Shown: in pieces, positions 9,476 to 52,523 of the stretch
Layout of the letters: every line of letters starts with the position of its first letter
Position numbering within the stretch: the first letter of the stretch is position 1
Source of the DNA: Arctopsyche grandis
Taxonomy: Eukaryota > Arthropoda > Insecta > Trichoptera > Hydropsychidae
DNA length: 64,000 nucleotides
Direction: 5' to 3'
Assembly: GCF_051622035.1 (NCBI RefSeq)
Contig: NC_135355.1
Location: forward strand, 33,585,986-33,649,985
Notes under the pieces: model-generated
Database searches by the model: none
Told to the model about the DNA's origin: nothing
Seen by the model: the letters and a program-made list of their open reading frames with translations, nothing else
Program-made: the position numbers and the translations under genes

Positions 9476-10128
9476 TAAGTTAGAACGTTTGGTGTATATC
9501 TTGCATCGTTAAATACTTTGATTCCGGTGATAGCTAGGTTAGGATGGGTAAGGTAAGGTTACTACTACGGACTTACACCACCTGAAACTCAACAGTATTT
9601 GTTGACGGAACTATTGGGACGTAAAGAAGTGGAGGAGGAAGAAGGGACAGATACAGAGGAAAAAACAATAACCGACCTGTTGAAATAGGTCAGAACGAAT
9701 CACACATAGACAAACTAAAAATTTTAACAGCTTTAGTAAGTCTCCTTGGCGATGCACAATTTTTCATTTTAGAACGAAAAAACTCTACTAGCACGTTAGG
9801 TACATCTTGCATTGCTGAATACTTTGATTCCGGTGATGGTTAGGCTAGGTTGGTATAGGTTAGGTTAGGTTAGCACGTTCGCGGCATATCTTGCATTGTT
9901 GAATACTTTGATTTTGGGTGATGGTTAGGTTAATTTGGGTTAGGTAAGGTTAGGTTAGCACGCTAGATGTATATATTGCATTGTTGAATACTTTGATTCC
10001 GGTGATGGTTAGGTTAGCTCGTTAAAAAAAAAAAGGTAAGCACGCTAGGTCTATATCTAGCATTGTTGAATTCTTTGATTCCGGTGATATTTGGTTAGGT
10101 TGGGTTAGGTTCGGTTAGGTTATTTTGA
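9476..10128. repeat. Satellite islands with an unassigned insert
   Basis: Satellite monomers reappear at about 9476-9568 and 9787-10128 (GATTCCGGTGATGGTTAGG anchors, TTAGGTT runs). The segment between, 9569-9786, is not satellite. It contains a short acidic reading frame (LTPPETQQYLLTELLGRKEV, then Glu/Thr-rich, stop at about 9687) that I do not recognise and consider a retroelement scrap. A decayed hAT copy follows on the right. Confidence 0.7.
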
Positions 10129-11468: not shown

Positions 11469-13018
11469 ATGCTTTGCGCTGACGTTTGTTTGACAATTAT
11501 TGTGAACGTTTGTTTCTGGATGTTCGGTCTGCAAACAATCAAATATGATGGCAAAGTTTTAAAATCAATCTCACCAACCATTACCTACAAGCTATTCGTT
11601 CTGACGGTTTTTGCAATATATTGTTTAACAAATCCGTATTATTGCTATACAATGCTGAAGCGTTTAGAATCTTCATTTTTGTTATATCTTTGTTTTGCAC
11701 AACTGTTTGTAGAATTTTTATCAAGTGAAATAACCCTTATTTGTCAGCACAAAAATGCCAAAAATAAAGTTGCATTGTATTCGAATTTCTTACGCGTCGA
11801 TAGAATATTGGATAACGGGAAAACTAATGAGATTTTAATACAAAAAATTTTCGTATCTCTAACGATTTTCGTTTTATTAGACAAGATTTACATAATGTAT
11901 ATTTTCAATGACTTTTATTATAGCTTAGCAACGTTCATCTCACAGTTGATAACACACCTATCAATATTACAATTAACGACAGAAATAATTTTGACCCGCT
12001 CACAACTTCGAAAGATCAATTCAGAATTACAAAAAAGAAACTACGAAGGCATTGTGAATATTTATGAAAATTCATTTACACATGACCGTTCTTTTAATGT
12101 TTTACCCTTAATACGAGCATTTAATATAATCACTGAAAACATTTCGGAAATTGGAAAAAATTTCACATTGGCAGTAAGAAGACGTGATTTAGAAAATATT
12201 TTTGTAATAAATGTACATATTTATGAATGATTATTTTCAGTGTATCTTCTTGTGCCTCAATACTTTAATTATGTACGTTGTGGTTGTACGTTATATAGTT
12301 GGATATAAGATATATAAGGTATAAATAAGAAGTTTTTATAAAATATAATTAAGTATATATGTATGTATATTTACATATGTATAAAGTGAATTTGGAAGGA
12401 TTACCGTTTTTTTTGTTGACTAACGGCTAATTAAAGAGAATATAATAAACCTAATAAAGAGAATATAAAAATTGAATTAGAGTAAGTATTATAAAGTATT
12501 ATAATACTTACTCTAATTCAAAATTGCCGTATTAAATTTAAATTTTCTTTTATATTCATAAGTACATACATATGTTCCACATACATATAAATATATGTAC
12601 ATATGTTATACTGTTTTAGGACCACGATGTTATGATATTGGTTTCTATAGACATGCTTCGTCAAATATCGCATGTGTTGTCAGTTGTAATTTTGGGAGAA
12701 ATATTGACGTCTGAAGGAAACGTAATGAAAAAAAAAATTGGAAAATTAATTATATTGAAAGCAACAGGTAAAACGATTTATCAAATACACATGAATATTA
12801 TGTTTATATATAATCATTATTAAATTATAATAAAAAATAATTGTATTGCAGATAAAGAAACACTACATTTGTTGTATGTATTTACTAATCTCACCCAAAA
12901 AAATAAATTCAATTTAAATATAGGTGGTTTATTCACGGCGAATTTTTTCTTTTTTTATTCATTCATCGGAGTCATAGCTTCCTATACTATTATTGTACTT
13001 TGTTTGGATTCTGCTTGA
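11469..13018 (+). CDS. Gustatory-receptor-like chemoreceptor, gene 1
   Basis: Predicted multi-pass membrane receptor of the insect gustatory receptor family, expected in the dendritic membrane of chemosensory neurons; ligand unknown. Four exons: 11469-12173, 12241-12318, 12620-12767, 12852-13018 (phases 0, 0, 1), giving 365 aa. All introns are GT/AG. Hydrophobic segments fall near residues 5-20, 38-62, 70-92, 126-146, 150-176, 236-256, 265-291 and 336-361, compatible with a seven-helix receptor plus a pore-loop-like stretch. The family C-terminal signature TYhhhhhQF appears as SYTIIVLCL (residues 354-362), so T-to-S and QF-to-CL. The frame is open throughout and the length is normal for the family. 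Genes 2 and 3 share its exon plan and most of its sequence. The start is the ATG aligned in all five paralogs. It could be a divergent relative, but the fold and exon plan argue for this family. Confidence 0.85.
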
Positions 13019-13643: not shown

Positions 13644-16600
13644 TCATCATTTACAGCCATTCGCCATCCACTGCTGGATGAAGGCCTCTCCAACACGCTT
13701 CCACTCGTCTCTGTTTTGCGCAACACTCATCCATCTCATTCCGCACATTTTCCTAATTTCGTTCACCCATCTTCCTTGCGGTCTTCCTTTTACTCTTTTG
13801 CCTTCTCTCGGGTACCATTCAAGCACTTCTTTTGTCCACCTTTCGTCCATCCTCCTAGCTACGTGACCCGCCCATTGCCATTTCAATCTCTTCACTCTAT
13901 CCACTATGTCCACTACCCTTGTCATATTTCTCACCCACGTGTTCCGCTTCCTGTCTTTCCTCGTTATGCCAAGCATACAGCGTTCCATACTTCTTTGAGT
14001 GCATTGGATTTTGTTTTGCATCTTGGCGTTCAGTGTCCAAGTTTCACATCCATACGTCATCACTGGCAAAACGCATTGATCAAAGATCCTTTTCTTCAGG
14101 CAGAGTGGCATTTTTGATTTAAAAACAGCATTCATCCGTCCAAATGCACTCCACCCCAATTTCATACGTCTCTTTATCTCTTCATTTTTACTACCAGACA
14201 TGTCAATTATTTGACCTAAATATAAATAATTATTTACTACTTCTACTGGTTTATCATCTAAGGGGATGCTATCAGGCATGCAATAACTATTGAACATTAG
14301 TTTAGTCTTATCTACGTTAATTTTTAATCCTACTTTTCTACTTTCCCTGTCCAGCTGTGTTAGTCTGATAAGTAGGTCAGCTGAATCACGAGCTACTAAA
14401 ACTATATCGTCTGCGAACCGAAGGTGACTCAAAAAGCGACCATTGATGCTTACTCCGGCTGTATCCCAATCCAATTTCCTGAAAACTCCCTCAAGCACCG
14501 CATTGAATAACTTGGGCGAGATTGTATCTCCTTGTCTTACTCCTTTTCCTATGCTAAATCTATCTGTACCTGAAAAAATTTTAACTGAAGCTGTGGCATT
14601 CTTATATATTGTAGCTAACAGTCCCACATAGGGTTCCGGCACTCCCTGTGTTTTTAGAGCGTTAAGTACTGCATTATGACTAACTGTATCGAAGGCTTTC
14701 TCATAATCGACGAAACCTAGGCACAGTGGCCGTTGATATTCGTTGGCGCGCTCGATTAGTTCGCCAACTACTTGGAGGTGGTCCATTGTGCTGAAATTTG
14801 CCCTAAACCCTGCCTGCTCTATAGGTTGGTTCTCGTCGAGGATATTCTTCAGCCTTTCTGTAATAACCTTCGTGAAGAGCTTGTAGACCGCTGAAAGTAG
14901 ACTAATGGGTCGGTAGTTCTTGATATCGCTTTTGTCGCCTTTTTTGTGTATTAAAATGATAGTTGCGTTATTCCATCCTTCTGGTATAGCTTGGTTCTGG
15001 ATGCATTTGCTGAAAAGCCTAGCTAAGATATTAATTAGGGGGGGGCCGCCACATTTTAGTAAGTCGATGGGAATATTATCTTCCCCTGGGGTTTTACCAT
15101 TCTTTGCAGTTTTTAGCGCGGCCTCTACTTCGCTAGGCAATACTGCAGGAACCCTTTGGCCGTGTGTCGATTCCAGAGTGGGGAATTGGCCGTTGTCGTT
15201 CTCGTATAGTTTTGCATAGAACGTGTAAACTCTGTCTATGATTTCTTCTCTATTCCTAATTATTACTCCGCTCTCTGATCTGATTGCGATCATTTGGTTT
15301 TTGCCTAAGAAAAGATCCTGTTTGCACTTTTTCAGGCTACGGTTATTCTTAATGGTATTTTCTATTAGCTTGCTGTTAAAATCCCTGACATCCCTGACTA
15401 TTCTCTTCTTAATTTCCTTATTTACTAGATTGTATTCTTGCTTATTATTATCCCTATCTAAATTCCTTTTATGCTTAATTAGGTTTTTTGTTTCCGCTGA
15501 AATTTTGCTTAATTTAATCTGTTTCCTGAAACCACCTAATTTCTTACCTGTTGAGGTTAGAACCGAACTAATTACAGTGTTCAATTCCTCGATGTCTGCT
15601 TCTGGGTTTAATTTCCCGTATCGATTTCCAAGTTCGAGTTCGAATTCCTTTTTCCTAGACCTTAGTTGAGCGAAATCTGGAGAGTTACTGCATCCTTTTA
15701 TTAATTTCCTACGTTCGCAATTTATATTAATGGCCATCTTGGCACGGACTAATCTGTGATCGCTGCCTATATCTACTTTACTTAAAACACTAACGTCTTT
15801 AACGGAGTGCAGGGCATTTGTTAGGATGAAATCGATCTCGTTTCTGTCTCCTTTAGGACTCTCCCAAGTCCACTTATTGTTGGTGTTTTTCCTGAAAAAT
15901 GAATTAGTGATGAAGAGCCTGTTGTGTTCTGCGAATTCTATGAGGCGATCGCCTCTGTCGTTTCTTTGGCCGGTACCAAAATTGCCTACTGCTCTTTCTG
16001 TGTTTGCCTTTTGTCCTATTTTTGCGTTAAAGTCGCCCATGATTATTTTAAAGTGGTGGCGGCTATTATCGTATGCGCCCTGTAGTTTTTCGTAGAAGTC
16101 TTCTATTTCCTCGTCTGGGTGGCTAGATGTGGGGGCGTACACTTGGAAGATTTGACAAGTGTACCTGCTCGAGATTCTTAATACTACATAGCATATACGT
16201 TCCGATATGTCGTTTATTTCTATAATATTTCTTTCTATTCTCTTATTGATAAGAAACCCTACTCCTCCTATTCTACCATTTGGTAGCCCTCTCCAGTAGA
16301 GACAGTTACCACTTTTTAGGATTATTTGGTTTTCCTGTTTTCGTCTTACTTCGCTAAGTCCTACTAAATCCCATTTGATACTTTCTAGTTCATTCTCTAA
16401 TGCAAGCACACTTCCTTCACTCGATAACGTTCTTACATTGTACGTGGCTAAATACAGGTTTCTATTAGCTAAGCTATCATCCATCGTCACTCTTACCTTG
16501 TTGGAGGTTTGGATATTATTTTTCTCGCATTTATCCAAGATGTGTTGAGAAAAAGGCGGTACTTGAGAGAGATTTCCATTCAAGGAGTGAGTTCTTACCG

Positions 16601-17309
16601 CCATAAACTCTTCTCTGTGGTCAGCTTTGACATATAGTCATCCTAGGTATCACTTGGATCACTTATGAGTTATTACATGCCATTTAACAGGGTTACTTTG
16701 TAAGTGAAAGTAGTTAGTTATGATAATAATAGATTAGCAATTGTTATACTACTTTTTTACAGATCTTTATCGTGAGACGCCTCTTTGGAGACAACGGATT
16801 TATATATGTGAGTGCGGTTTGCAATTTAATATTTTAATAATAACTTTAGTAAAGTATATAAAATTACACGAATTACTTTAATATAATTTAAATATGAAAA
16901 AGAACTGATAGACAGTTGGGAAACACCGTTTCTGTTTGCTATTATTCTATTAAGTAAAGTTCGTTAAAGATTTTTGGCTGGAAGCAATTATGTGGAAGAT
17001 TTATTGCTTCTGTGGGACCGACTTGGCTGGCGAAGGACCCTTTTTTTGTATTCAGGTAGGGAGATGTATCTCGTTTGACACCGATTTGACACAAAAATTA
17101 GCACAAAATTTTTCGAAATAACTGATATAAAACCGCTTTTTACGACCGATTTGCTGTTTATTTTTACACTTAAATTATACTAGGATGCAATTAGTAAAAT
17201 AAGTGATTAGATGGTTAAGTTAAATTTCGTGCAATAGCCGGGTTTAAGCGAGTAATAGCGGGAGGAACGCAGAAGCACGTCCTCCTCACATGACACGAAA
17301 GACCGAACT

Positions 17310-18021: not shown

Positions 18022-19497
18022 ATGCATTGCGCTGACGTTTTGTTGACAATTATTGTGAACGTTTGTTTCTGGATGTTCGGTCTGCAGACAATCAAATATG
18101 ATGGCAAAGTTCTAAAATCAATCTCACCAACCATTACCTACAAGCTTTTCGTTCTGACGATTTTTGCAATATATTGTTCAAAAAATTTGTATTATTACTC
18201 CACGATGATGAAGCATGTAGAATCTTCATTTTTCGTATATCTCTGTATTGCACAAGTGTTTGTGGAATTTTTATCAAGTGAAATAATCCTTATTTGTCAC
18301 TTTAAAAATGCCAAAAGTAAAGTTGCATTATATTTAAATTTCTTACGCGTCAATAGAATATTGGATAGCGGGAAAATTAATGAGATTTTGATACAAAAAT
18401 TTTTTGTATCTTTTATGATTTTAGTTTTATTAGAGAAGATTTACCTAATGTATATTTTCAATGACTATTATTATAGCTTGGCAACATTCATCTCACAGTT
18501 GATAACACAACTATCAATATTACAACTAACGACAGAAATAGTTTTAACTCGCTCACAACTTCAAAACATCAATTCCGAATTGCAAAATAGAAACTACGAA
18601 GGCACTGTGAATATTTGTGAAAATTCATTTTCATGTTACCGTCCTATTGGTGTTTTACCCTTAATACGAGCATTTAATATAATCACTGAAAACATTGCGG
18701 AAATTGGAAAAAATTTCACATTGACAGTAAGAATATTTGTAAAATATGTCTGTAATAAATGTACATATTTATGCATAATTATTTTCAGTGTATCTTCTTG
18801 TGCCTCAATACTTTAATGATGTATGTCGTGGTAATACGTTTTATAGTTGGATATAAATTATATGAGGTATAAATTAGAATTTTTTATAAAATATACCTAA
18901 GTATACATACATATGTATAAAGTTAGTTCTGGAAGGAATTAATGCCTTTTTTTGTTGAGTAACTGTAAACTAAAGAGAATATAATATACCAAAGCATTAT
19001 AATACTTACTCGAATTCAAAATTGCCTTATTAAGTTTTAATTTAATTTAAAGTACATACATATGTATGTATGTATGTTATTCTGTTTTAGGAACATGATG
19101 CTGTGATATTGGTGTCTATCGACATGCTTCGTCAAATATCGCATGTGTTGTCAGTTGTAATTTTGGGAGAAATATTGACGTCTGATGGAAACGTAATGAA
19201 AAAAAATATTGGAAAATTAATTATATTGAAATCGACAGGTAAAACGATTCAACAAATGTACATTCATATTATGTTTGTATATTATATAATCATTATTTAT
19301 TTAGTAATAATAAAAATTATTTTATTTCAGATAAAGAAACACTACACTTGTTGCATGTCTTTAAAAATCTCACCCAAAAAAATAATTTCAATTTAAATAT
19401 AGGATGTCTGTTCACCGCGAATTTTTCATTTTTTTATTCATTCATCGGAGTCATAGCTTCTTATACCATCATTGTTCTTTTTTTGGATTCTGCTTGA
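18022..19497 (+). CDS. Gustatory-receptor-like chemoreceptor, gene 2
   Basis: Same family and exon plan as gene 1. Exons 18022-18726, 18789-18866, 19091-19238 and 19331-19497 have the same lengths (705, 78, 148, 167 nt) and phases, giving 365 aa without stops. It is close to genes 1 and 3 (FGLQTIKYDGKVLKSISPTI and FNIITEN shared). It differs by YRPIGVLPLI in the intracellular loop and by VLFLDSA at the C-terminus, where the family QF is replaced by FL. Predicted seven-helix membrane receptor; ligand unknown. The upstream DNA is a fold-back relic instead of the hAT tail found at genes 1 and 3. The conserved CCTATAAAAG lies just before the ATG. Confidence 0.85.
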
Positions 19498-23523: not shown

Positions 23524-24579
23524 ATGTTTGTAGTGAAGGCGAATTCCAATTTTGCTGCAAAACGGGTGGAGTATTTGTATGAGGCAATGCAACAACATAA
23601 GAAATGCGATACCTCTTTTTTTGTTCGAGATCAAGTGTACCTTAGTTCATATCCAAAATTATTTAAAATCCAAATTGTTCTATTAGTTTAATTATAATTT
23701 TTCGTAATTGCAGATTCTACGCGCACTTGATCGTGTTAACGGCGTGCAGCGAATTCTTTGAGACAAACGAAAGTCAAGTGGAGGGGATCTTTTCAGATTT
23801 CGACTACGAAGTCATCGAAGCAATCCTGAAGTATTGTTACACAGGAGAAATAAGTACGAGTTCATAAATATCAAAAATAATCAATTTCAAATACGAGATT
23901 TCAATCAATCAAATGCAATCATTAAAATATAATTTTAGACATAGGAGAAAAACACCGCAAAAAATTAATGGAGCTAGCCAACCGACTGGAAGTGAAAATT
24001 CCACCACAAATTAAAACAGTCAATAAATCTAATTGTCTGAAAGTTTTGAAATCAACGACAGATTCCGAATTATTAAAAAAGGCAATGGATTTGACTCTGG
24101 AAAATTTTGAGACGGTGAGTGTTGATTATATGAAAAAAAATATGTCACTTAAATATTTTTCAATCCCACTTCTGTTTCAGCTGCACAAAACTCAAGATTT
24201 TCTCAATCTGCTGGCCTCTGATGTGATCGAAATTTTGAAATCGAATTATTTGAACGTGCCTTCCGAAGAAGACGTATTCAATGCTGTGAAATTGTGGGTA
24301 AATCATGACGATGCAAACCGTAAAAATGACTTGGCACAGCTGTTGAGATCTGTGAGGTTATCCTTACTCTCCATGGAGGTATTTGAAATTAAATGTTTGC
24401 AGTTACAGTTTAGTGATAAAAATCATTCGAATAATGTGTTATATTTTCAGTTTGTCGTCGATGAAGTAATGACGTTCTGTCATTGGTGTGCAGAGTGTAT
24501 GACCACTATTAGACAAGGAATTAAAGACAAGAATGACAAAAACTTCAACCACAGAGAGAGCCCTCGTAGAGTAAAATAA
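23524..24579 (+). CDS. BTB-BACK protein, Kelch-like but lacking the propeller
   Basis: Five exons (23524-23636, 23714-23853, 23939-24114, 24181-24378, 24451-24579), GT/AG, 251 aa. A BTB domain lies at about residues 1-90 (EYLYEAMQQHKKCDTSFFV, LTACSEFFETNESQ, FDYEVIEAILKYCYTGEI). BACK follows at about 95-235 (HRKKLMELANRLEVKI, DFLNLLASDVIEILKSN, EEDVFNAVKLWVNHD, LAQLLRSVRLSLL). Kelch-like proteins of this type act as Cullin-3 substrate adaptors; BTB binds Cullin-3 and the propeller binds substrate. Here the frame stops (TAA 24577-24579) where the paralog at 29.6-32.0 kb continues into Kelch repeats: the DNA jumps from the CACTGGTTGG codons straight to 3' flank. A donor GT|GTACCT for exon 1 is inferred because it keeps the 113-nt exon length of the paralog. 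The gene may be expressed as a dominant BTB-BACK or may be decaying. Confidence 0.7.
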
Positions 24580-26894: not shown

Positions 26895-28340
26895 TCAAAC
26901 AGAATCCATACAAAGTACAATTATAGTATAAGAAGTTATGATCCCGATGAATGAATAAAAAAATGAAAACTTTACGGTGAACAAACTTCCAATATTTAAT
27001 TCGAAATTATTTTTTTGTATGAGATTTTTAAATACATACAATAGATGCAGCGTTTGATTATCTACAACAAAATTGTATTTTTAATAATTTCAGATAATAA
27101 ATATGATATAAACATAAAAATGTTGAATCACTTTACCCGTTGACTTTAATATAATTAATTTTCCAATATTTTTTTTCATCAAGTTTCCTTCAAATGTTAA
27201 TGTTTCTCCCAAAATTGCAGTTAAAAACACATTGAACATTTGTTGAAGCATATACAATGATATCATTATCCCTATAGTATATTCCTAAAACATAAAATAC
27301 ATAAGTATGTAAGTATATATAGCGAAATGATCAATATACAGTGTAAATTTAAATTCTGAATTGGATGGCAAGTATTTTAAAGGATGAAACGCAAAAAATT
27401 CCCACAGAATTATTTTTTTATAATAAATCTGCTTTATAATAAGTCCTTACCATAAATATACGATTTCCACGTAAATGACGCATAACCACAATATATATCA
27501 TTAAAGTATTGAAACACATTGAGATACACTGGAAAATGTTTGCACTTTAAATATAGCAATACGAATTTGTTATATTATATATAAGTAAATTTTGATAAAG
27601 TATTTATTAAAATCTTATTTCCTTACTGGCAATGTGAAATTCTTTCCAATTTTTACGACATTTTCGCTGAGTATATTATATGTATGTATTAAGGGCAATA
27701 AATCAATGGAAATATGATGTGAATATGAACTATCCATTACAAATTTTGCGTCATCGTCAGTGTTTCGTTTTTGCAAATTCGAATTAATCTCTTGTAGTTG
27801 GGAACGAGTTAAAATTATTTCCATTGTTAATTGCAACATTGATAAATTAGTTATAAATTGTGAGATTAATACTGTTGAGCGATAATAATAGTCAGAGAAA
27901 ATATACATTTCCAATGACTTCTCCAAAATAATAAAAAACATATATAACATGAAAAAAATTTGTATACAATTTTCATGTATTTTCCTTTTATTTGTGTTAT
28001 ACAACATTTTATTGACTCGAGAAAAATTTGTATATAACGCAATCTTATTTTTTGCATTTTTATGGTGGCAAATAAGGATTATTTCACTTGTTAAAAACTC
28101 CACAAACATCTGTGCAATAGAAAGATATACGAGAATTGTAAATTTCGATTTCGTTAGAAGTGTATATACATAATAAAAATTGTATAACCAATATATTGTA
28201 AAAATTATCATAACGAAAAGCCTGTAAATCACGGCCGGAGAGATGATTTTTAAAAGATTTTCATCATATTTGATTGTTTGAAAACCAAATATCCAGAAAC
28301 AAAAACTCACAACATTCAATACAACTTGCGAGTAACTCAT
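26895..28340 (-). CDS. Gustatory-receptor-like chemoreceptor, gene 4
   Basis: Second-subfamily member on the minus strand. Exons 27627-28340, 27451-27528, 27137-27284 and 26895-27061 (phases 0, 0, 1), GT/AG, 368 aa with no stops. Shared landmarks are FGFQTIKYDENLLKIISPA, MFVEFLTSEIILIC, LSMLQLTMEIILTRSQLQ, LPLIHTYNIL and the C-terminus SYTIIVLCM where the family expects TYhhhhhQF. Start choice: codons in frame upstream are open, but the residue that is ATG in gene 5 at 38632 is AGG here. The first usable ATG is 28338-28340, which aligns with the start of the other four genes. It lies alone, inverted, in the loop of the Kelch inverted duplication. It is closest to gene 5, with similarity continuing 5' into the flank. 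Predicted seven-helix receptor, ligand unknown. Confidence 0.85.
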
Positions 28341-28780
28341 GATATTTAATAATGATCGATTTAAAAGCTCACACCTATTCAAATTGGAAAATCAACATAA
28401 TGGAAACTGTCAACTGGTTTCATTAATATTAAATAGCAATTAAAATTTATCAGCTTTCAGTAAAAAAACAAAAGCGTTTTATTTTCAATAAAGAAATAAT
28501 GAAAATGTCATTTTATTTTTGTGCGGACAAAAAATTGCAATTAATATAGAATTTTTAGCTTTTGGATAGCTTTTGGATAGCTTTTAAATTACATACAATT
28601 TTGATATTATTAATACATTGTATGCTGGAAACAGAGATTACAGTCATTAGGATATTCTTGCTTGACAGCGGGAGACAATGATCTCCGTTTGTGTTTATGT
28701 TCTCGGACTTGTGATTTCCGTGGACAGGGGTAGGTAAGTATCCTTTTATACAGCAAATATTTAAACTGAGAAAAAAATTT
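28341..28780 (-). promoter_or_regulatory. 5' flank of gene 4, conserved with gene 5
   Basis: The reverse complement of about 28400-28740 matches 38310-38600 upstream of gene 5: CACAAACGGAGATCAT, GACTGTAATCTC, TTTCCAGCATACAATGT, TTTAAAAGCTATCCAAAAGC, TGAAAGCTGATTATTTTTAA-like. It probably contains the promoter. No TATA box or factor site can be fixed by eye. Confidence 0.5.
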
Positions 28781-35825: not shown

Positions 35826-37260
35826 ATGCATTGCGCTGACGTTTTGTTGACAATTATTGTGAACGTTTGTTTCTTTATGTTCGGTCTGCAGACAATCAAA
35901 TATGATGGCAAAGTGTTAAAATCAATCTCACCAACTATTACCTACAAGCTTTTCGTTCTGACGATTTTTGCAATATTTTGTTTAACAAATCTGTATTATT
36001 CCTGTACGATGCTAATGCGTTTAGAATCTTCATTTTTCTTATATCTTCCTTTTGCACAGGTGTTTGTGGAATTTTTATCAAGTGAAATAACCCTTATTTG
36101 TCAGCACAAAAATGCCAAAAATAAAGTTGCATTGTATTCGAATTTCTTACGCGTCAATAGAATATTGGATAGCGGGAAAATTTATGAGATTTTAATACAA
36201 AAAATTTTCATATCTCAAACGATTTTAGTTTTATTAGAGAAGATTTACCTAATATATATTATCAATGACTATTATTATGGCTTCGCAACATTCATCTCAC
36301 AGTTCATAACGCATCTATCAATATTACAACTAACAACAGAAATAATTTTGACCCGCTCACAACTTCAAAAGATCAATTCAGAATTGCAAAAAAGAAACTA
36401 CGAAGGCATTGTGAATATTTATGAAAATTCATTTACACATTACCGTTCTTTTAATGTTTTACCCTTAATACGAGCATTTAATATAATCACTGAAAACATT
36501 GCGGAAATTGGAAAAAATTTCACATTGACAGTAAGAAGATGTGATTTGAAAAATATGTTTGTGATAAATGTACATATTTATGAATAATTATTTTCAGTGT
36601 ATCTTCTTGTGCCTCAATACTTTAATTATGTATGTTGTGGTTATACGTTTTATAGTTGGACATAAATTATATGAGGTATAAATTAGAAATTTTTATGAAA
36701 TATACTTAAGTACATATATAAAAATGTTTTTTATTGTGTAACTGCAAATTAAAGAGAATTCCAAAGTATTATAATACTCACTCAAATTCAGAATTGCCTT
36801 ATTGAGTTTTAATTTTTGTGTATATTCATAAGTACATATGTATATGTATGTATGTTATGCTGTTCCAGAACCATGCTGCTGTGATACTGATTTCTTTAGA
36901 CATGATTCGTCACATATTGCATGTGTTGTTAGTTGTAATTTTGGGAGAAATATTGACGTCCGAAGGAAACGTCATGAAAAAAAATATTGGAAAATTAATT
37001 ATATTGAAATCAACAGGTAAAACGATTTAACAAATGTACATAAATATTATATTTATATATAATCATTATTAAATTATAATAAAAATAATTTTATTGCAGA
37101 TAAAGAAACACTACACTTGTTGTATGTCTTTAAAAACCTCACCCAAAAAAATAACTTCAATTTAAATATAGGAGGTTTATTCACAGCGAATTTCTTCTTT
37201 TTTTATTCATTCATCGGAGTCATAGCTTCTTATACAATCATTGTACTTTGTTTGGAATAA
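35826..37260 (+). CDS. Gustatory-receptor-like chemoreceptor, gene 3
   Basis: Exons 35826-36530, 36598-36675, 36869-37016, 37100-37260; 363 aa, no stops. Same plan and phases as genes 1 and 2. N-terminus MHCADVLLTIIVNVCFFMFG, intracellular loop FTHYRSFNVLPLIRAFN as in gene 1, C-terminus ASYTIIVLCLE then TAA. The last exon is 6 nt shorter than in its paralogs because about 170 bp of foreign sequence begins inside the Asp codon (37257-37427), replacing the final Asp-Ser-Ala with Glu. The exon 3 acceptor is TTCCAG rather than TTTTAG. Predicted membrane chemoreceptor, ligand unknown. The loss of two or three C-terminal residues need not abolish function. Confidence 0.85.
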
Positions 37261-38309: not shown

Positions 38310-38667
38310 AGTCGGAGAGTATAAACACAAACGGAGATCATAGTCTCCTCCTCTCAAGCAACAAGACCCTAAAGACTGTAATCTCCGTTTCCAGCATACA
38401 ATGTGTTAATAATATTAAAATTGTATGTAATTTAAAAGCTATCCAAAAGCTAAGAATTCTATAGTAATTGCAATTTTGTGTCCACACAAAAACAAAATAA
38501 CATTTTCATTACTTCTTTATTGAAAATTAAACCGTTTTTTGTTTTTTTACTGAAAGCTGATTATTTTTAATTGCTATTTTATATTAATGAAGCTAGTTGA
38601 CAGTCCATTATATTGATTTTCCAATTTGAAAATGTGTGAGCTTTTAAATCGATCATTATTAAAGAAC
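38310..38667 (+). promoter_or_regulatory. 5' flank of gene 5, conserved with gene 4
   Basis: Counterpart of 28400-28740 in inverted orientation. It contains AACACAAACGGAGATCAT, AGACTGTAATCTCCGTTTCC and TTTAAAAGCTATCCAAAAGC. GGAGAT and ATCTCC form a spaced inverted pair about 50 bp apart. A regulatory role is inference. Confidence 0.45.
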
Positions 38668-40119
38668 ATGAGTTACACACAAGTTGTATTGAATGTTGTG
38701 AGTTTTTGCTTCTGGATATTTGGATTTCAAACAATCAAATATGATGAAAATATTTTCAAAATCATCTCTCCGGCCGTGATTTACAGACTTTTCGTTATGA
38801 TCATTTTTACAATACATTGGCTATACAATTTCAATACATCTCTAACGAAATCAAAATTTACAATTCTCGCATATCTTTCTATTGCACAGATGTTTGTGGA
38901 ATTTTTAACAAGTGCAATAATTCTTATTTGCCAGCATAAAAATGCAAAAAATAAAATTGCGTTATATACGAATTTTTCTCGCGTCGATAAAATGTTGAAT
39001 AGCTCATATAAAAGGAAAATACATAAAAATTTCATACATAATTTTTTCATATCATACATGTTTTTAATTATTTTGGAGAAGTCATACGAAATGTATATTT
39101 TCTCTGACTATTATTATCGCTCAGCAGTATTGATCTCACAATTTATAACTAATTTATCAATGTTGCAATTAACAATTGAAATAATTTTAATTCGTTCCCA
39201 ACTACAAGACATTAATTCGAATTTGCAAAAACGAAACACTGACGATGACACTAAATTTGTAATGGATAGTTCATATTCACATCACATTTCCATTGATTTA
39301 TTGCCCTTAATACATACATATAATATACTCACCGAAAACGTCGTAAAAATTGGAAAGAATTTCACATTGACAGTAAGAAAATAAGATTTTAATAAATACT
39401 TTATCAAAATTTGTATTACATACTTATATAATATAACAAATTCGTAGATATTTAAAGTGCAAACATTTTCCAGTGTATCTCAATGTGCTTCAATACTTTA
39501 ATGATATATATTGTGGTTATGCGTCATTTAGCTGGAAATAATACATTTAAGGTAAGGATTTATTATAAAGCAGATTTATTATAAAAAAATAATTCTGTGG
39601 GAATTTTCTGCTTTTTATCATATAAAATAGTTCCCATCCAATTCAAAATTACCTTTAAAATATATTTCACACTGTATATTGATAATTTTGCTATACATAC
39701 ATACTTATGTATTTTGTATTGTTTTAGGAATATACTATTATGATAATGATATCATTGTATATACTTCAACAAATGTTTAATGTGTTCTTAACTGCAATTT
39801 TGGGAGAAACATTAACATTTGAAGGAAACTTGATGAAAAAAAATATTGGAAAATTAATTATATTAAAGTCAACGGGTAAAGTGATTCAACATTTTTATAT
39901 TTATATATTATATTTATTATCTGAAATTATTAAAAATACAATTTTATTGTAGATGATCAAACGCTGCACCTATTGTATGTATTTAAAAATCTCATACAAA
40001 AAAATAATTTCGAATTAAATATAGGAAGTTTATTCACCATAAAGTTTTCATTTTTTTTTTCATTCATCGGGATCATAACTTCTTATACTATAATTGTACT
40101 TTGTATGGATTCTACTTGA
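38668..40119 (+). CDS. Gustatory-receptor-like chemoreceptor, gene 5
   Basis: Exons 38668-39372, 39474-39551, 39728-39875, 39953-40119; 365 aa, no stops. Very close to gene 4 (FGFQTIKYDEN, KSKFTILAYLSIAQMFVEF, LPLIHTYNILTENVVKIG, C-terminus SYTIIVLCMDST). An in-frame ATG at 38632 would add 12 residues. I prefer 38668 because it gives exactly the 705-nt first exon of genes 1-3 and aligns with the only ATG usable in gene 4. Predicted seven-helix chemoreceptor, ligand unknown. It is in the same orientation as gene 3 and about 1.4 kb downstream of it. Confidence 0.85.
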
Positions 40120-44374: not shown

Positions 44375-47300
44375 ATGTATCCAGAACCGAACAAAACCCT
44401 ACTGCTGGCCTTTCTTTTGGCCATCTCCTTCAAATCCGGTGAGTTCTCCCGACCTGGACTTGCCTTTTCGCTCAATTTCTTCCGAATAACTTCGTTCGTC
44501 AACTTCAAACCACTCGGGAACTTCTCACGACGAGGCTGATCGTCGTTTTCATCGTCTATAAATTAGATTGTTGGTAATTTGCGAGTTTTACGTTGGATGT
44601 TTTCGTTTTTGGCTCGCGCTGTTTGTGTGGAAATAATGGGCGTGGAGCGTCTCTACGTTGCACCCACTTTGTCACTGCTCGTTAGCACATTGTGTTTACA
44701 TTTTTTTCTGAGTGTGAATATCCTGTATTTTTGCTTTATTCCTTGTAATATTAAATTAATTCGATTATCCCATATTTAATTCAAAACTATTTCGTTGTTT
44801 TTTTTTTTTAATATCAGGGGTTCTTAACCTCTTTATTATAGCGTCATAGTAGAAATGTTACAACAACGAATCAAAAAGTCTCCTTCTTTCTATCGTTTAT
44901 TTTTTTTAAATTATCATATTTTTGTAATTTAAATTTTTTAGAATTTATTTCTTGTTAAAAATAAGGCTTGAAGATTTGAAATGTTTGTTTTGTTAGCACA
45001 CTTTCTTTTGTCTTTAAATAAACTTACTTTTCATATAAAAACGTTGCATTATTAAATATATTACTTTGTATGTGAAACTTAGACTTTGAACGCCAAAATT
45101 CTGCACAAAATTCAATGCACTCAAATAAGTATGGAACGCTGTATGTTCGGCATAATGAGAATATACATGAAACGGAATTCGTAGGTGAGAAGTATGATAA
45201 GGGTAGTGGATATAGTGGAGAGAGTGAAGAGATTGAAATAGCAATGCCCCACATGAATTTCTCCCAGAATAAAATGTATTTTGTATATTGTTAATGACTC
45301 GTCAATAGTTTCTGCAAGTGTTTTTTTATCCCGCTCATCGCGCTGTGGGCAGAATAGGTTCGTAATTCAATTCGGTACAGCCGCTTATCTGCCGTGGTCC
45401 CGTGGTCGCCAGCTTCAGCTTACCTGCTACTCTGGTACTGTGTGTGGAGTGTAGACCGTCATTCGAGGCAAATAAAAAAGATCCGTAGTTCCGTGTAAAG
45501 AAGCGCGCATCTAATTGGCTTTCTAATAGTCTCTTTGGGGCAGAATAAGCCAGCCCCGGTTGTATATATATTCTCTATAAATTTCTAAAAATAGGACACC
45601 GTCAACGTTTTTCGACATTTCAACTAAATTTTCAAGGTATGCTTAAATTGACAATCACAATATCTCAATTATTTCATTTTTATTATTAAATATGTTTTGT
45701 TAATCACATTTTTGTTTTTTAGAACACATAATGAACCAAGTCAATAATTTAAAAGACAGTTTACATGCATAAAATATATAGTTCAGTTTTTTGGAAAAAA
45801 ATATGTAGGGGGGGCGGATTTAGTCTTCTCGTGCCCCACCTATTTTTAAAGTCACGAGCCACCCCTGGTTAGAAGTATGGATGAAAGATGGACAAAATAA
45901 GTGCTAGAATGGTAGCCGAGAGAATGTAAAAAGGTGAAAATAAGGCTGCAAGGAAGATGGGTAGACGAAATTAGGAAAATGTGTGGGATGAGATGGACGA
46001 GAGTTGCGCAAAAAGGAGACGAATAGGAGTTGGAGAGGTCTTCATCCAGCAGTGATTAGTGAGTGGCTGCAGATGATGATATAAAAAATATGTGTCATTG
46101 ACGTAAAATACGCCACAGGGAATTTTTTTTAATTTTAACAACTGTTTAGAATGACTGATGTAGTAGAATACATTAAATGTTTACCAAATTTTATCGACAA
46201 TCTTTGCCAAACAGTTTATAAATATATATATTATTTTTAATATAAAAGTTACAAGTGCAAATTTTTGCCAACCTTATCTTCACTACGTACATATATAATC
46301 AATTCTAATTATTTTATTTAATACAAATTGATTATACGTACGTATATATATTAATAAATCCAACTAGTATCATACGTACATAGGTTTTGCTTCAAACAAC
46401 TTGCTTCTGTCGAAATTACTGATGAAATTCAATTACCAGAAACAATAATGCCTAATTGTGAATTTGATTCATGTAAATGATACACGCAATTTATTTCGAA
46501 TACACAGTAATAATTTAGTAGAAATAGTTATTGCATGTTTCATATGAGGAAACACTGCATTAAAATAAAATATTGTATATGATTCATTCATCAAACATTT
46601 AAAATATGAATTATAGCTCTAATTTTTCCGATCATTGTACTGAGAAACTAACTATAGAATTATGTGATTTGAAATGATATTAAGCTCAATTCTACACAAT
46701 CAATACCAATGTGACCTTTTGACTTGACAGTATCATAACATGATTATTCTTATTCTACCTTCCATATTTTCAATGTTGTTTTTGTTTACATTCAAAATAA
46801 AACATCCTGAAGAATTGAAACTAAATTACCAACATAATTTTATATTTGACTCTCATAGAGGTTATCGTCTAAGTTTTAACACATAGTACAACGAACTATC
46901 GTATACATATATGTATACTATATGCTCTAGTTTATCAGTGGTTTCCAGACGACTTGTCGCATTACTGCACAGTATCGGAGAGCCAGTTAGTTTCACATCC
47001 ATGGTTCCATTTTGTAGACGAAACATTCATCGAACAATGCATCAGTAATATGTTCACACTTCAAAATATACGAATAATATATGTATGTACTCCAATCTAA
47101 GAATTATATTCGAAGAATTTTCAGCATTCTATGCCGCAGGTAGCTCTTTTATTGTAAGCACCATTGACAACTCCTTAATTTCAGGTGAAGAGCACTTGAA
47201 CGCCCTTCAGAATACTCTACATTCAAAGCTCACTTGAAAATGTTACGCAAAAGGCAATGAAATGGGAAAAAATTAAAAATAGCTTCCTCGCATACCTCAT

Positions 47301-50300
47301 GTTTCAGTGAAAATGTTTTATGTACATACATATATTTTTATTTTATCTATGTATTATACGTAGTAACAATAGATGATGTTTTGTGATCATGCGAAAATTC
47401 GAACTCGAGATTTTGACTGATTCGAACTCAGAATCGATCACTGATAACGTCTTCATGATCTAGAAAATTGGATAAATTAAGAAACGATCGATCTGGAATC
47501 ATAAATCCCAGGTCAAGCCAGCAACAATGGATCAGGGCTCGAACCCGTGACCCCTCAGTTATTAACATTATACGCTAACCACTGAGCTATGTTGCTGGTA
47601 TTGAATAATTTAATTTAAATTATTCAACGCTAACCGTTATCCTTTTTTAAATCCGCGTCATGTCTACTCCGGAAGAGCTTTTCTTTATCGAATTTCGTCA
47701 AATAATCTACCAAAGTCCTCTCAATTGCAGTATTGATCTTTTCCTTTTGAAACAGTCTTCTTTGTTTCATACATACGCCAATCAGCTTAATTAAAACATC
47801 TCAATTAAAAGGATTAACAAATCAATACCAGCAGAATAGACTAGCGGTTAGCATATAATGCTTTGAACAGAGTGGTCACGGGCTCAAATCCCACTGATTT
47901 CTGCTGGCCAGACTTTGGATTTGTGACTATGGGTCGATCGTTTCCTATCAGAGTTTGCCCATTTATCTGATTTTCATTGAAACGGTTCCAAAAAATTGGC
48001 AGCCTTATCCATTTTCTCGCAAACTTTTCAGCAAGCTCAAATTTCGCAGGATTGTATAAAATGCTGCAAATTTACAAATTTGACCATAAATAGCTGGATG
48101 TTAATTGATATGTATTTACTGAATTGTTTAAAATGCCGAAAATTTATAAATTTGACCGTAGATGTCTCTGTGGATATTAATTGATATGTATTTATGTACT
48201 TTGTATAATACTAATAGTATTTGTATCAAATGTACAATGTTTCTGGCCAAGAAGGTGCACTGAGGTTACCTGTTAGGCCTTTCTGATATAAATTAAAAAG
48301 ATAAAATAAAAATAAAATACCAGGGAATCTCAGTATCTGCGCGTCTAATTTTTATCTACAGAATTTTTGCGAAATTTCTTCACTCTTTACCTAATATTAT
48401 CATAACAATTCGTCTTTAATATAATCACTTGGAATTTGTAGCTAAATAATATTATTGTAGTAATTTATTTATTTTGTTTGGAAAATTGACAGTTTATTAA
48501 ATTACATAAATTGATAATAAAAACATAATTATTTAAAAAAAAACCATTAAGAATTTTCGCATACAGGTAAAAAAAAAGAAAAACTTAAGCAATTAAAATA
48601 AAAAACAAAAATAACAATAGAGTAAGATAACACTGTTCGACACGAAAAATGTTTCAGAGACGAGATATGACTTTTCTTATAGATCTATGCCTTTAATTAA
48701 CCCTTTTAAACGAAAACAAAAAATAGTGTGGCCAGAACACTATCCTAATAAACATGTTTCAATAGAAAATACTCAATATAATATAATATTAACAGTGGGA
48801 AAAAATCCCAAGTGAAAATACGTAATTTTGACTTTTGATTTGAACTGGACGACTACTTAAAGGGATTTGAAAGCTGAAAAGTACTACAAATGAAAGATAA
48901 AATACCCGACTGTAGATTCCAATATTCATTTTGAACAGGAAATTAACAGATTTTGAGAAATCGACCGAACAACACCAAGATATATGTAGAAAAATCGCGC
49001 GATTTAAAAAACACATATATCTCAGAATATCAAGCCAATCAACATTTTTTATTACCAGATTCGTGTTCACTGGGCATTGATCTATAATAAAAGTCATATC
49101 TCGTCTATGAAACATTTTTAAAGTCGTCATTTGTCGAACGGTGTAATTAGAGAAAACAAAAAAAAAAATAGAAATAACAATATAATAAAAATATCAAAAT
49201 AATAAGAATAATAAAACGATAACAGTATTATAAAAATAATAAAATAATAAATAATAAAAATAATATTATGTATAATAAAAACAAAAAAAAAATACAATAA
49301 AATAAAGTAATGTTATATTCGTACGATTGTACTCTCGCTCACTATTATTCAATAGCAATGTTGACTTAATTTATAATTTCAAAATCAAACTGGCCTATTA
49401 CTATTAGAAGATCAATTACTGATGTTTCTCTTTTTTATCTAATCAATATATATATGTACATAAAATATAAATATATTATTTTACACAGCACTCTCAATAA
49501 ACTGCTATCAGTGTTCGGGGACAGATCCAAAAAATCCATTTTTATGTAATGAATTTTTGGAAACGGACGATGAGGATTTAGTGCCGCTTAGTTGCCACGA
49601 CGTCTATGGTGCCAATTACTGTGTTAAGCACACGGGGAGATTCGAAGGTGAGCGTCCATCCAAGGCCTCCGATAGCCTGCCGGGATCTAACAACACTAAC
49701 TTTGGGAGACGGTGAACTGTAACGAGAGCTCGAACCATTAACACATTACTAATACCTGTTGTATCTTTCTTATTCATGCTGCTTTGTGGATTGACTGATA
49801 TTAGCTATGAGTATACAATGCTATCAGTGCGACTCCACACAATCTATCGACTGCGCTGATCTGTTGATAAACGAAGACGAGAACGATTTTCAACCGCAGG
49901 AGTGTGAAAGCGTCTTTGAGGCTCAATATTGCATAAAGAGTACAGCGCTGGAAGGTGGGTTTGCATGCGGAAACATTGTATTCAAGATTGAAGACAGATC
50001 AGTATCTACTTTTCATAGTGAAATAAAAAAAAATGTCATTTTTAATATCCAATTTTATTGTGCATGCTTAGCAAGAGTATATATATATAATATAAAATGA
50101 TTAATCAGACGAGCTATATTCTAATATTGAAAAATAATGGGATAGTACATAAGAATAGAGTAGAAATTTTCATTTTTCATTATACACTAACATCTAATTT
50201 TCATTTATTTCATTTTTTCTAAAATTCTGTTTTTTATCTATATATTTATTGCACAACGGAACTTCATTATATGATCCTTAAAAACATGACTTTCCTAAAA

Positions 50301-52523
50301 TATTATTTTGTTGCAATTTTTATAAAATTTATTCCGACTTTTCATCATTTGATTCCTTCATAAGGATAGTGAAATTCCGTTGTACCGGTTTATTTTAATT
50401 TAAAATACTTAACCTATCTGACATTTACATCATAAAGAAATACATATAATAATCGGTAAACAGATTATTTCGCACATTGCGATCCCGCACACGATATCTG
50501 GAATATCTGGCACTCGAGTTCTCGTTATGTTAGTTTGCGTGGGTAACTTAAGATGGATGGAATTTTCGGGTGCCAGATGTTTCGTGATCGAGATTATAGA
50601 CGCGTGCGAAATCGTTTTGTGCGGAATAATCACCGAACCATAATAATGTGAGTGGTCCTCACTTTTGCCGATTTTTTTTATTTTGACTCTCCAATCTCTT
50701 AATGAAATTCACATGGGCAATAATTTAATCTTTTAAGAATGTAGATTCATCATCATCATTTACAGACATTCCTCATCCACTGGCGGATGAAAACCTCTCC
50801 AACACGCTTCCATTCGTATCTGGTTTGAGCAACTTTCATCCATCTCATCCCACACATTTTGCTAATTTCATCCACTCATTTCCCCTGTAGCCGTCCTTGC
50901 ACCCTTTTACATTCTCTCGAGTACCATTCGAGCACTTCTTTCATTCAATCTCTTTACTATTTCCACTATAAAACCAACAACATATGCCAGTGGTTAACAT
51001 ATAATGCTATCATGGGTTCGATCCCCAGCCCGCTGTTGCTGGCCAGACCTTGGATATATGTGACTCCAGGTCAATCGTTTCCTATCAGAGTTTGCGCCAA
51101 TTTTCTGATTTCATTAATCTTCTCTGTAGCCTACCTTGCACCGCTTTACATTCTCTCAGATACCATTTGAGCACTTCTTTCGTCCGTCTTTTAGCTACGT
51201 AACCCGCCCATTTCAATCTCTTTAGTCTCACCATTACTTCAACCTCCTTTGTCATACTTCTCACCCACATATTCCGTTTTCTATCTCTAAGAATATAGTA
51301 AAAATAAGCAGAATAAAAATTAAAAGATTACTTTTCAACCAATTACTGTAACAATTTGTTTTTAAAACATTTTATACTTATTCTACATTCTTAAAAGAAA
51401 CAAATTGGACTATGAAATGAATTCAATTTAATAAAAAATTTCTCTAAAAGATGTTTTCCAATGAGTGTGAGACTTAAGGCAAAAACACACTGAGTGGTAT
51501 GGCACGTCAGTCCTTCTTTTTTGCTTTAGCTTCTCGCTGTGACTTGCACATGCAAAATTCATATGTTTTGGAGGTTAACCGACAAGTTTCTCCTACATTT
51601 CTTCAAATATGGGATTTACCGTTATCGATTACTGTCAAACAAGGATAAAATATCACCGAAAACACTCTAGGGGGCGATTTTTTGGGACCGTGTACCATGT
51701 ATATGGACTAGGGGTGCTGCATTTTTTTCGCACGTTTAAAAGTATCCAAATAAAAACACATCCCACGTCCCACTTAGTGTTTTTTCGCCCTTATTCTCAC
51801 TTTAAAATTAAAAAAAAACTCAACAGCTAAGAGGTGACCACTTTCATGTATGTTATTGTACATCAGATAAGCCTTAAAGGTATTATAACATCGGTGTAAT
51901 TCACAAAATGCTACAAATCTCACAAGTAGTATTACCAAAAATTACTGGAGACTAGAAAATTGTACAAACTCGTATATTTATTTATATTTTTTAAACACAA
52001 AACATTAAACAAATAATATCACTTTAAACCAAACAATGAAAAAGATTTATGCATATGAATTACGCCGAAGATATACATACATACTACACATTAAATAACC
52101 TTATTTGAACATAGCAGCATCTGAAAAATATTAACACTAAAGCATTTCTCTCTCTATATATATTATACTATTATAAAATTAATCAAGAAAGTTTCAAAAT
52201 GTATCAAGCACTTTTAACACTAAACGCTAACTTTCCTTATAAATGCATTACGAAAAGGCCCCCAATATCTAAATTAAAACATCAATACACAAGTCTTACG
52301 AATGATTTCAGGTGGAATCGGCACACGGAGATACTGTTCAGCTCTAGATCTCGGCAACTATTGCAACTACGTCAAACAGAAAGGCGACTCGCTGGAGTAC
52401 AGATCTTGCATATTCACGTGCAACACCGACGGATGCAATTCATCACCCTCTCTCACATCATCCAAATTTTATTCAATGGTTGTATTGCTAAGTGTGATGT
52501 ACGTCGTACGATTACTATCGTAA
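44375..52523 (+). CDS. Ly6/uPAR (three-finger) GPI-anchored protein
   Basis: Exon 1 44375-44438 gives MYPEPNKTLLLAFLLAISFK, a signal peptide. Exon 2 has two versions: 2a 49489-49647 or 2b 49805-49954. Exon 3 is 52312-52523 (TAA 52521-52523). All junctions are phase 1 and GT/AG. Form 2a is 144 aa, form 2b 141 aa. Each mature form has ten cysteines in the Ly6 pattern: CYQC, C, C, YC from exon 2; YC, YC, SCIFTC and the terminal DGCN from exon 3. The C-terminus after CNSSPSLTSS is hydrophobic (MVVLLSVMYVVRLL), as expected for GPI attachment. Ly6 proteins of insects act at the cell surface, in septate junction assembly or channel and receptor modulation; the specific role here is unknown. The 5-kb first intron holds RTE, hAT, SINE and Harbinger relics. 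AATAAA at 52787-52792 is a candidate poly(A) signal. Confidence 0.85.
45066..46081 (+). mobile_element. RTE LINE 3' fragment interrupted by hAT DNA
   Basis: 45066-45245 and 45870-46081 match the end of the RTE ORF (GTATGGAACGCTGTATG, GAGAGTGAAGAGATTGAAAT; then GTATGGATGAAAGATGGACA, AATTAGGAAAATGTGTGGGA). It ends at the ATGATGAT tail. The frame is broken. It lies in the Ly6 first intron. Confidence 0.85.
45246..45869. mobile_element. hAT-like insertion in the RTE fragment
   Basis: The right end, read on the minus strand, is CAGGGGTGGCTCGTGAC followed by TTTAAAAATAGGTGGGGCAC, a hAT-type terminus. The left end is unclear (about 45246), so it may be truncated. The interior has a GC-richer block at 45330-45550 and no coding frame. 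Confidence 0.65.
46085..47470. other. Intronic AT-rich DNA (Ly6 intron 1)
   Basis: No recognisable feature. Confidence 0.6.
47475..47600 (-). mobile_element. tRNA-derived SINE, copy b
   Basis: Minus strand: CCAGCAACATAGCTCAGTGG, TTAGCGTATAATG, then B box GGTTCGAGCCC, then GTTGCTGGCTTGACCTGGG. The clearest tRNA-like head in the window. Confidence 0.8.
47830..48310 (+). mobile_element. Longest SINE copy (about 480 bp)
   Basis: Head with A-box-like GACTAGCGGTTAGCATATAA and B-box-like GGGCTCAAATCCC. Body GACTTTGGATTTGTGACTAT, GTCGATCGTTTCCTATCAGA. The long 3' part ends GTTACCTGTTAGGCCTTTCT and an A-rich tail. It contains a loose internal repeat (TTTACAAATTTGACCATAAA at about 48067 and TTTATAAATTTGACCGTAGA at about 48142). 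Confidence 0.75.
48631..49143. mobile_element. Harbinger-like MITE (513 bp)
   Basis: Inverted ends start CACTGTTCGACA and CACCGTTCGACA and stay similar for about 60 bp (AATGTTTCAGAGACGAGATA versus AATGTTTCATAGACGAGATA). TAA flanks both sides (48628-48630, 49144-49146). Intron 1 of the Ly6 gene. 49150-49300 beyond it is A-rich with simple repeats. Confidence 0.75.
49489..49647 (+). other. Ly6 alternative exon 2a
   Basis: Acceptor TTACACAG, donor G|GTGAGC, phase 1 to 1, 159 nt. Encodes INCYQCSGTDPKNPFLC, then an acidic loop ETDDEDL, then SCHDVYGANYCVKHT. Five cysteines of the three-finger fold. Confidence 0.85.
49805..49954 (+). other. Ly6 alternative exon 2b
   Basis: Acceptor TGATATTAG, donor G|GTGGGT, phase 1 to 1, 150 nt, only 157 bp downstream of 2a. 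Encodes IQCYQCDSTQSIDC, acidic NEDENDF, ECESVFEAQYCIKS. The same five cysteines in the same order as 2a, but about half of the remaining residues differ. Splicing both exons in series would keep the frame but give two half-domains, an improbable fold. Confidence 0.8.
50454..50639. mobile_element. MITE family M, copy A (186 bp)
   Basis: Ends CGGTAAACAGATTATTTCGC and GCGGAATAATCACCGAACC are imperfect inverted repeats flanked by ATAATAAT on both sides (50446-50453, 50640-50647). Shares CTGGCACTCGAGTTCTCGTT with copies B and C in the coronin introns. Lies in the last Ly6 intron. Confidence 0.8.
50748..51290 (-). mobile_element. RTE LINE 3' fragments with a SINE inside
   Basis: 50748-50970 and about 51118-51290 both match the RTE 3' end on the minus strand (ATCATCATCATTTACAGACA, CACTTCTTTCGTCCG, ACGTAACCCGCCCATTTCAA). 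They overlap in RTE coordinates, so two fragments or a local duplication. The SINE at 50972-51115 separates them. Confidence 0.75.
50972..51115 (+). mobile_element. tRNA-derived SINE, copy c
   Basis: Head AACATATGCCAGTGGTTAAC with B box GGTTCGATCCC at about 51014, then GCTGGCCAGACCTTGGATAT and GTCAATCGTTTCCTATCAGA. Confidence 0.8.
51478..51790. mobile_element. Harbinger-like MITE, relative of the 41.1-kb element
   Basis: Ends GGCAAAAACACACTGAGTGG and, inverted, GGGCGAAAAAACACTAAGTG; internal GGACCGTGTACCATG and CATCCCACGTCCCAC recall the 41078-41744 element. The target site is less clear than there. Confidence 0.65.

Follow-up and report, generated by a model that had tools for sequence, protein, structure and literature searches.

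The window, the whole 64,000-nt stretch of DNA that was analysed, contains on its forward strand a Ly6/QVR gene with a three-exon build, with coding sequence from position 44375 in exon 1 to position 52523 in exon 3. The second exon of this gene is present twice, as the homologous exons 2a and 2b. The coding features, and the intron that separates the two copies, are as follows:

44375..44438, + strand: coding portion of exon 1, with the start codon and a predicted signal peptide (Kyte-Doolittle hydrophobic stretch up to 3.3); ends in phase 1
49489..49647, + strand: exon 2a, 159 nt; cysteines 1-5, covering finger 1 and the first half of finger 2 by the LU scheme; phase 1/1
49648..49804, + strand: intron between 2a and 2b, 157 nt; contains CTAAT, resembling a branch site, at −53 relative to the 2b acceptor
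49805..49954, + strand: exon 2b, 150 nt; homologue of 2a; cysteines 1-5; phase 1/1
52312..52523, + strand: coding portion of exon 3, through to the stop; cysteines 6-10 with Cys-Asn, then a hydrophobic tail that could be a GPI signal

Every junction of the gene is GT-AG and in phase 1. The lengths of 2a and 2b are both divisible by 3, and each exon has just one open frame of three on the forward strand. Intron 1 spans 5 kb. All three donors are GT sites of the U2 type and, according to an approximate splice-site matrix, rank within the top 0.03%, 0.23% and 0.34% of the 3,544 GT sites in the window. The pyrimidine content of the acceptors is modest, at 0.50-0.56. A preliminary description of the locus had set the donor after 44438, 2a at 49489-49647, a gap of 157 nt, 2b at 49805-49954 and the acceptor before 52312, and these boundaries proved exact. 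Its assignment of equal phases (1/1) and of cysteines 1-5 to each copy was confirmed from the sequence, and the loop sequences that it quoted are present in 2a and 2b.

The two predicted isoforms, 1-2a-3 and 1-2b-3, comprise 144 and 141 residues, respectively, each with 10 cysteines. Searched against the Pfam QVR profile (PF17064; curated cut-off 27.3 bits), they scored 34.9 and 45.3 bits, which supports the earlier view of the locus as a Ly6 gene with two half-domain exons and with exons 1 and 3 in common. The cysteine spacings are nearly equal, being 2,10,15,8,16,8,14,3,4 in the 2a isoform and 2,7,16,8,15,8,14,3,4 in the 2b isoform; the spacing of 8 between Cys4 and Cys5 is the same in both exons. 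In both isoforms, the tenth cysteine is followed by Asn. The intron before exon 3 separates Cys5 from Cys6; the domain-splitting intron of LU genes is placed at the tip of loop 2 in PMC6600238. By these sequence tests, the predicted product is a QVR-family Ly6 protein.

The ends of the predicted proteins are also of the expected kind. At the N-terminus, an A-x-S motif, read by eye and completed by the first residues of either exon 2, would suit signal peptidase. The C-terminal tail past the last Cys-Asn is hydrophobic, with a 9-residue hydropathy of up to 2.7, and may be a GPI signal. At pH 7.4, the mature domain has a computed charge of −5.6 in the 2a form (A) and −9.7 in the 2b form (B). A search of solved structures returned chance matches only (best E 0.1), and no relatives were found in viral contigs.

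To establish the relationship between the two copies, their peptides and coding sequences were compared. Over 50 aligned residues, exons 2a and 2b are identical at 21 (pairwise E 6e-13, or ~3e-9 against the 64-kb window). Identity peaks in the first strand (7/9) and is lowest in finger 1 (2/8) and in the stretch between Cys3 and Cys4 (5/15); the scaffold has been kept and the loops have changed. A recent duplication or an assembly doubling is ruled out: 66 of the 147 aligned coding bases differ, 32 of them at third positions, and the 466-bp stretch corresponds to a single genome match. Over 49 codons, pN was 0.38 and pS 0.70, with a dS of ~2, such that synonymous sites are saturated. Neither exon contains a stop or a frameshift or has lost a cysteine. 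Together with the excess of pS over pN, these intact frames and cysteines indicate purifying selection on 2a and 2b. The simplest reading of the sequences is that exon 2 alone was duplicated in tandem long ago and that both copies have been under selection since.

The same data bear on the possibility that one exon is dominant and the other a decaying or seldom-used relic. In its favour, 2a scores lower than 2b with the QVR profile and is the more changed copy: among the other exon-2 peptides of the genome (n=11), the related genes are nearer to 2b. Very recent disuse, moreover, would leave no trace in the sequence. Against it stand the intact frames and cysteines, the pN below pS, and the outcome of a neutral-decay simulation, with substitutions only and 2a as the starting sequence, in which none of 20,000 runs retained an open frame and five cysteines at the observed divergence of 45%. 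The retained fraction was 0.0008 at 30% divergence, 0.009 at 20% and 0.10 at 10%. We therefore consider a relic improbable and favour the reading in which both exons remain in use.

To determine whether the doubling extends beyond exon 2, we scanned the window in six frames for the cysteine pattern. The scan yielded four matches, all within 2a, 2b and exon 3, and neither a second Ly6 gene nor a hidden second exon 3 was found in the 64-kb window among the matches listed. The best other matches in the window, among those listed, had E values of 0.59 for 2a, 1.4 for 2b, 1.0 for exon 3 and 0.19 for exon 1. A two-domain ancestor, since lost, may have existed but left no trace.

Other features of the window lie apart from this gene. 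A large tandem array of 60-85-bp units rich in GGTTAGGTT occupies positions 26-5613 and recurs at 9789-10122; the strong skew in GC over the first 6 kb of the window coincides with it. Five ORFs that are similar by eye occur on both strands (11469-12230, 18022-18816, 27615-28382 on the − strand, 35826-36587 and 38626-39384). Four of the five were scanned against Pfam, and the sole match was that of 27615-28382 to 7tm_7 (chemosensory receptor) at 25.8 bits, below the cut-off of 26.6; the five are perhaps a local chemoreceptor cluster. An ORF of 985 aa at 13647-16604 on the − strand encodes an endonuclease and a reverse transcriptase domain of the LINE type, and an ORF with a BACK domain, of the BTB-kelch type, lies at 23968-24579.

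We also searched the genome (476 Mb, 189 contigs), which its receptor-like ORFs and QVR genes mark as probably that of an insect, with the QVR profile. The search gave 17 matches, which included 2b and missed 2a, so genome-wide Ly6 counts obtained in this way are lower bounds. Among the 13 exon-2 peptides of the genome, 2a and 2b are reciprocal best matches at 42.4 bits; the second-best match scored 26.9 bits for 2a and 35.0 bits for 2b. The two exons cluster in both trees, with a FastTree support of 0.944 and a weak IQ-TREE support of 65/61.

The exon structure of the related genes was then surveyed by tblastn in 160 kb of sequence surrounding 15 of those 17 profile matches, using 13 exon-2 and 7 exon-3 peptides as queries and a cut-off of 0.05, which a twin exon as similar as 2a is to 2b would have cleared. 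All 10 related genes had a single exon 2 and a single exon 3. This count excludes the window's own 2b and a match on contig C4 (L023) whose matched stretch is interrupted by in-frame stops. Also excluded are two exon-3-like matches, L005 and L006 (C13:13.627 Mb and C178, respectively), which have equal score and identity, lie one on a large contig and the other on a small one, and are perhaps a haplotype duplicate. Read by eye, the exon-2 donor is in phase 1, as it is here, in five related genes (L008, L010, L015, L016 and L021); in two of the 10 (L024 and L026), and likewise in L007 and L009, exon 2 extends beyond Cys6, so the domain is split differently. Clusters of Ly6/QVR genes occur elsewhere in the genome, with at least four genes at C7:26.94-26.98 Mb (L024-L028) and at least three at C13:13.44-13.49 Mb (L030-L035).

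Exons 2a and 2b have the features by which mutually exclusive exons are recognized in the literature, namely similar length, equal phase, compatible splice sites and homologous peptides. Such features give no certainty: of 65 internal exons that WebScipio predicted from them, only 26 were annotated at publication (PMC3228551). We consider it likely, from the sequence features described above, that 2a and 2b are used alternatively, essentially one per transcript. Alternative use was also the reading of the preliminary description, and the homology, phases and intact copies support it as the best one. Accepting it, what looks like a single insect gene for a small cell-surface protein probably yields two protein versions with different binding surfaces.

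Alternatively, both exons could be joined constitutively. The in-frame product, 1-2a-2b-3, would be 194 residues long, with 15 cysteines and one and a half domains; the donors of both exons are good, and the translation contains two QVR stretches that total 51.2 bits. This cysteine number is odd. In addition, the standard LU disulfide pairing is 1-5, 2-3, 4-6, 7-8 and 9-10 (PMC6600238), by which two complete disulfides come from each exon 2 together with Cys4, and a lone Cys6 from exon 3. Inclusion of both exons would thus orphan one Cys4. The copies also substitute for one another exactly, and neighbouring homologous exons are seldom both constitutive: of 16,180 exons on the D. melanogaster X chromosome without a mutually exclusive annotation, only 90 look mutually exclusive, in 6 of 1,705 genes (PMC3228551). 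Constitutive joining is accordingly a poor candidate. The earlier judgement that joint use is unlikely gains from the odd cysteine count and the orphaned Cys4 and is weakened in that the joined form and the double-skipped form (1-3, with 5 cysteines) are both in frame.

Also quite unlikely is a choice made by transcription rather than splicing, in which 2b (or 2a) would be expressed from another promoter and joined to a separate first exon. Intron 1 is roomy enough for an extra first exon, and of the 94 exons predicted by WebScipio, 29 were alternative first or last exons and 21 alternative-promoter exons (PMC3228551). Against this, the signal peptide predicted in exon 1 is suited to 2a and 2b alike, and tblastn with exon 1 gave no other copy in the window among the matches listed (next E 0.19), signal peptides being too variable for this to exclude one.

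We therefore return to alternative splicing of 2a and 2b and to what could enforce it. Enforcement by reading frame is ruled out, as both lengths are divisible by 3 and the joined and skipped products stay in frame. Steric enforcement is likewise ruled out, since the 157-nt gap, with ~104 nt between the 2a donor and the branch-like A, looks adequate for splicing. Incompatibility between U12 and U2 sites, which would involve the minor spliceosome, is ruled out by the U2 type of the donors. As none of these three can enforce the choice, regulation must make it. Competing RNA structure in the introns gave no convincing signal: the five pairings examined were equalled by 2, 60, 17, 39 and 60 of 60 shuffles, respectively, and the lone low value (2/60) belongs to a pairing in AT-rich, low-complexity sequence.

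Two short motifs lie just downstream of 2b:

49962..49967, + strand: UGCAUG, possible Rbfox site, at intron position 8 after 2b
50061..50066, + strand: UGCAUG, possible Rbfox site, at intron position 107 after 2b

On the + strand, TGCATG occurs 15 times in the 64-kb window and three times between exons 1 and 3, including these two. Their presence within 112 nt 3' of 2b compares with an expectation of 0.03 per 120 nt (P for two or more, ~4e-4), a value that becomes roughly 0.01 once corrected for the 7 types of motif and 3 regions inspected, this being a post hoc lead. The 157-nt gap is also denser than the gene average in ACTAAY (2), YGCY (3) and TCTT/CTCTCT (2) sites, to which we gave no weight.

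Drosophila Rbfox1 is reported to bind (U)GCAUG, with an effect that depends on whether the site lies upstream or downstream of the exon (PMC8742874). In unc-32 of C. elegans, RBFOX proteins and a UGCAUG in the intron past the second exon govern which of two mutually exclusive exons is used, and neural selection of the first exon depends on that motif (PMC3585155). The position of the motifs after 2b matches that of the unc-32 switch; the unc-32 motif favours the upstream exon, and the direction may differ here. These parallels suggest that the choice between 2a and 2b could be set by an Rbfox-type splicing regulator acting on the two UGCAUG motifs, a proposal made because frame, crowding and minor-spliceosome incompatibility cannot enforce it. 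The full model, in which Rbfox-controlled, tissue-specific, mutually exclusive splicing would give a pair of membrane-anchored modulators that differ in fingers 1-2 and in their partners, is put forward tentatively, as a possibility more doubtful than alternative use itself. If it were true, the receptors, channels or junction proteins targeted by a neural or muscle form, for example, might differ from those of an epithelial form.

Overall, we propose that the symmetric, phase 1/1 second exon of a three-exon Ly6/QVR gene was duplicated in tandem long ago, and that both copies were retained by selection and now serve as alternatives, with normally one per transcript. The sequence demonstrates the exons, their frames and splice-site sequences, the homology of 2a with 2b and selection after their divergence; exclusive splicing, GPI anchoring and a difference in partners are inferred from it. 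The products would share the signal peptide, the second half of the domain and the membrane-anchor signal, and would differ in finger 1 as well as in the first half of finger 2. Because these fingers differ, the partners are probably different, or the same partner is bound differently.

Insect Ly6 proteins have been described at septate junctions (PMC3058042) and as modulators of Shaker channels and acetylcholine receptors (PMC6600238 and PMC12337328). By analogy, a change in fingers 1-2 could alter the choice of partner. The suggestion in the preliminary description that the products are GPI-anchored ligands or chaperones is one guess among these roles. Ly6 diversity in insects, with 45 in Drosophila, is usually ascribed to whole-gene duplication (PMC6600238). 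If our reading is correct, the locus represents a second route to diversity, in which a single gene swaps an exon for half of the three-finger fold, and it would supply a natural pair of proteins with an identical anchor half, useful for asking which fingers determine binding. No insect Ly6 gene of such an exon build was found in the literature searched, the scope of which took in few subscription papers, and a published case may exist.

The gene is ordinary in its family and unusual in its exon build. As in the archetypal LU/Ly6 gene (CD59, LYNX1 and insect Ly6), there are three exons, phase-1 introns, a signal peptide in exon 1, a domain split over exons 2 and 3, 10 cysteines and a hydrophobic C-terminal tail (PMC6600238). 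Unlike that archetype, exon 2 alone is doubled here; each of the 10 related genes examined has one copy. The scores of both isoforms, above the curated cut-off of PF17064, place them with the Quiver/Sleepless proteins at the level of the family only. Two-exon mutually exclusive clusters, some of which swap part of an extracellular domain, are found in the FGFR genes and in egl-15 and unc-32; these have adjacent homologous exons of equal phase, as here, and the worm genes have UGCAUG in the flanking introns (PMC3585155). By contrast, the part exchanged here would be half of a small, disulfide-rich three-finger domain. Among Ly6 genes, human LY6G5C is named in a list of annotated three-exon mutually exclusive clusters (PMC6071210), and the likeness to it is one of listing alone.
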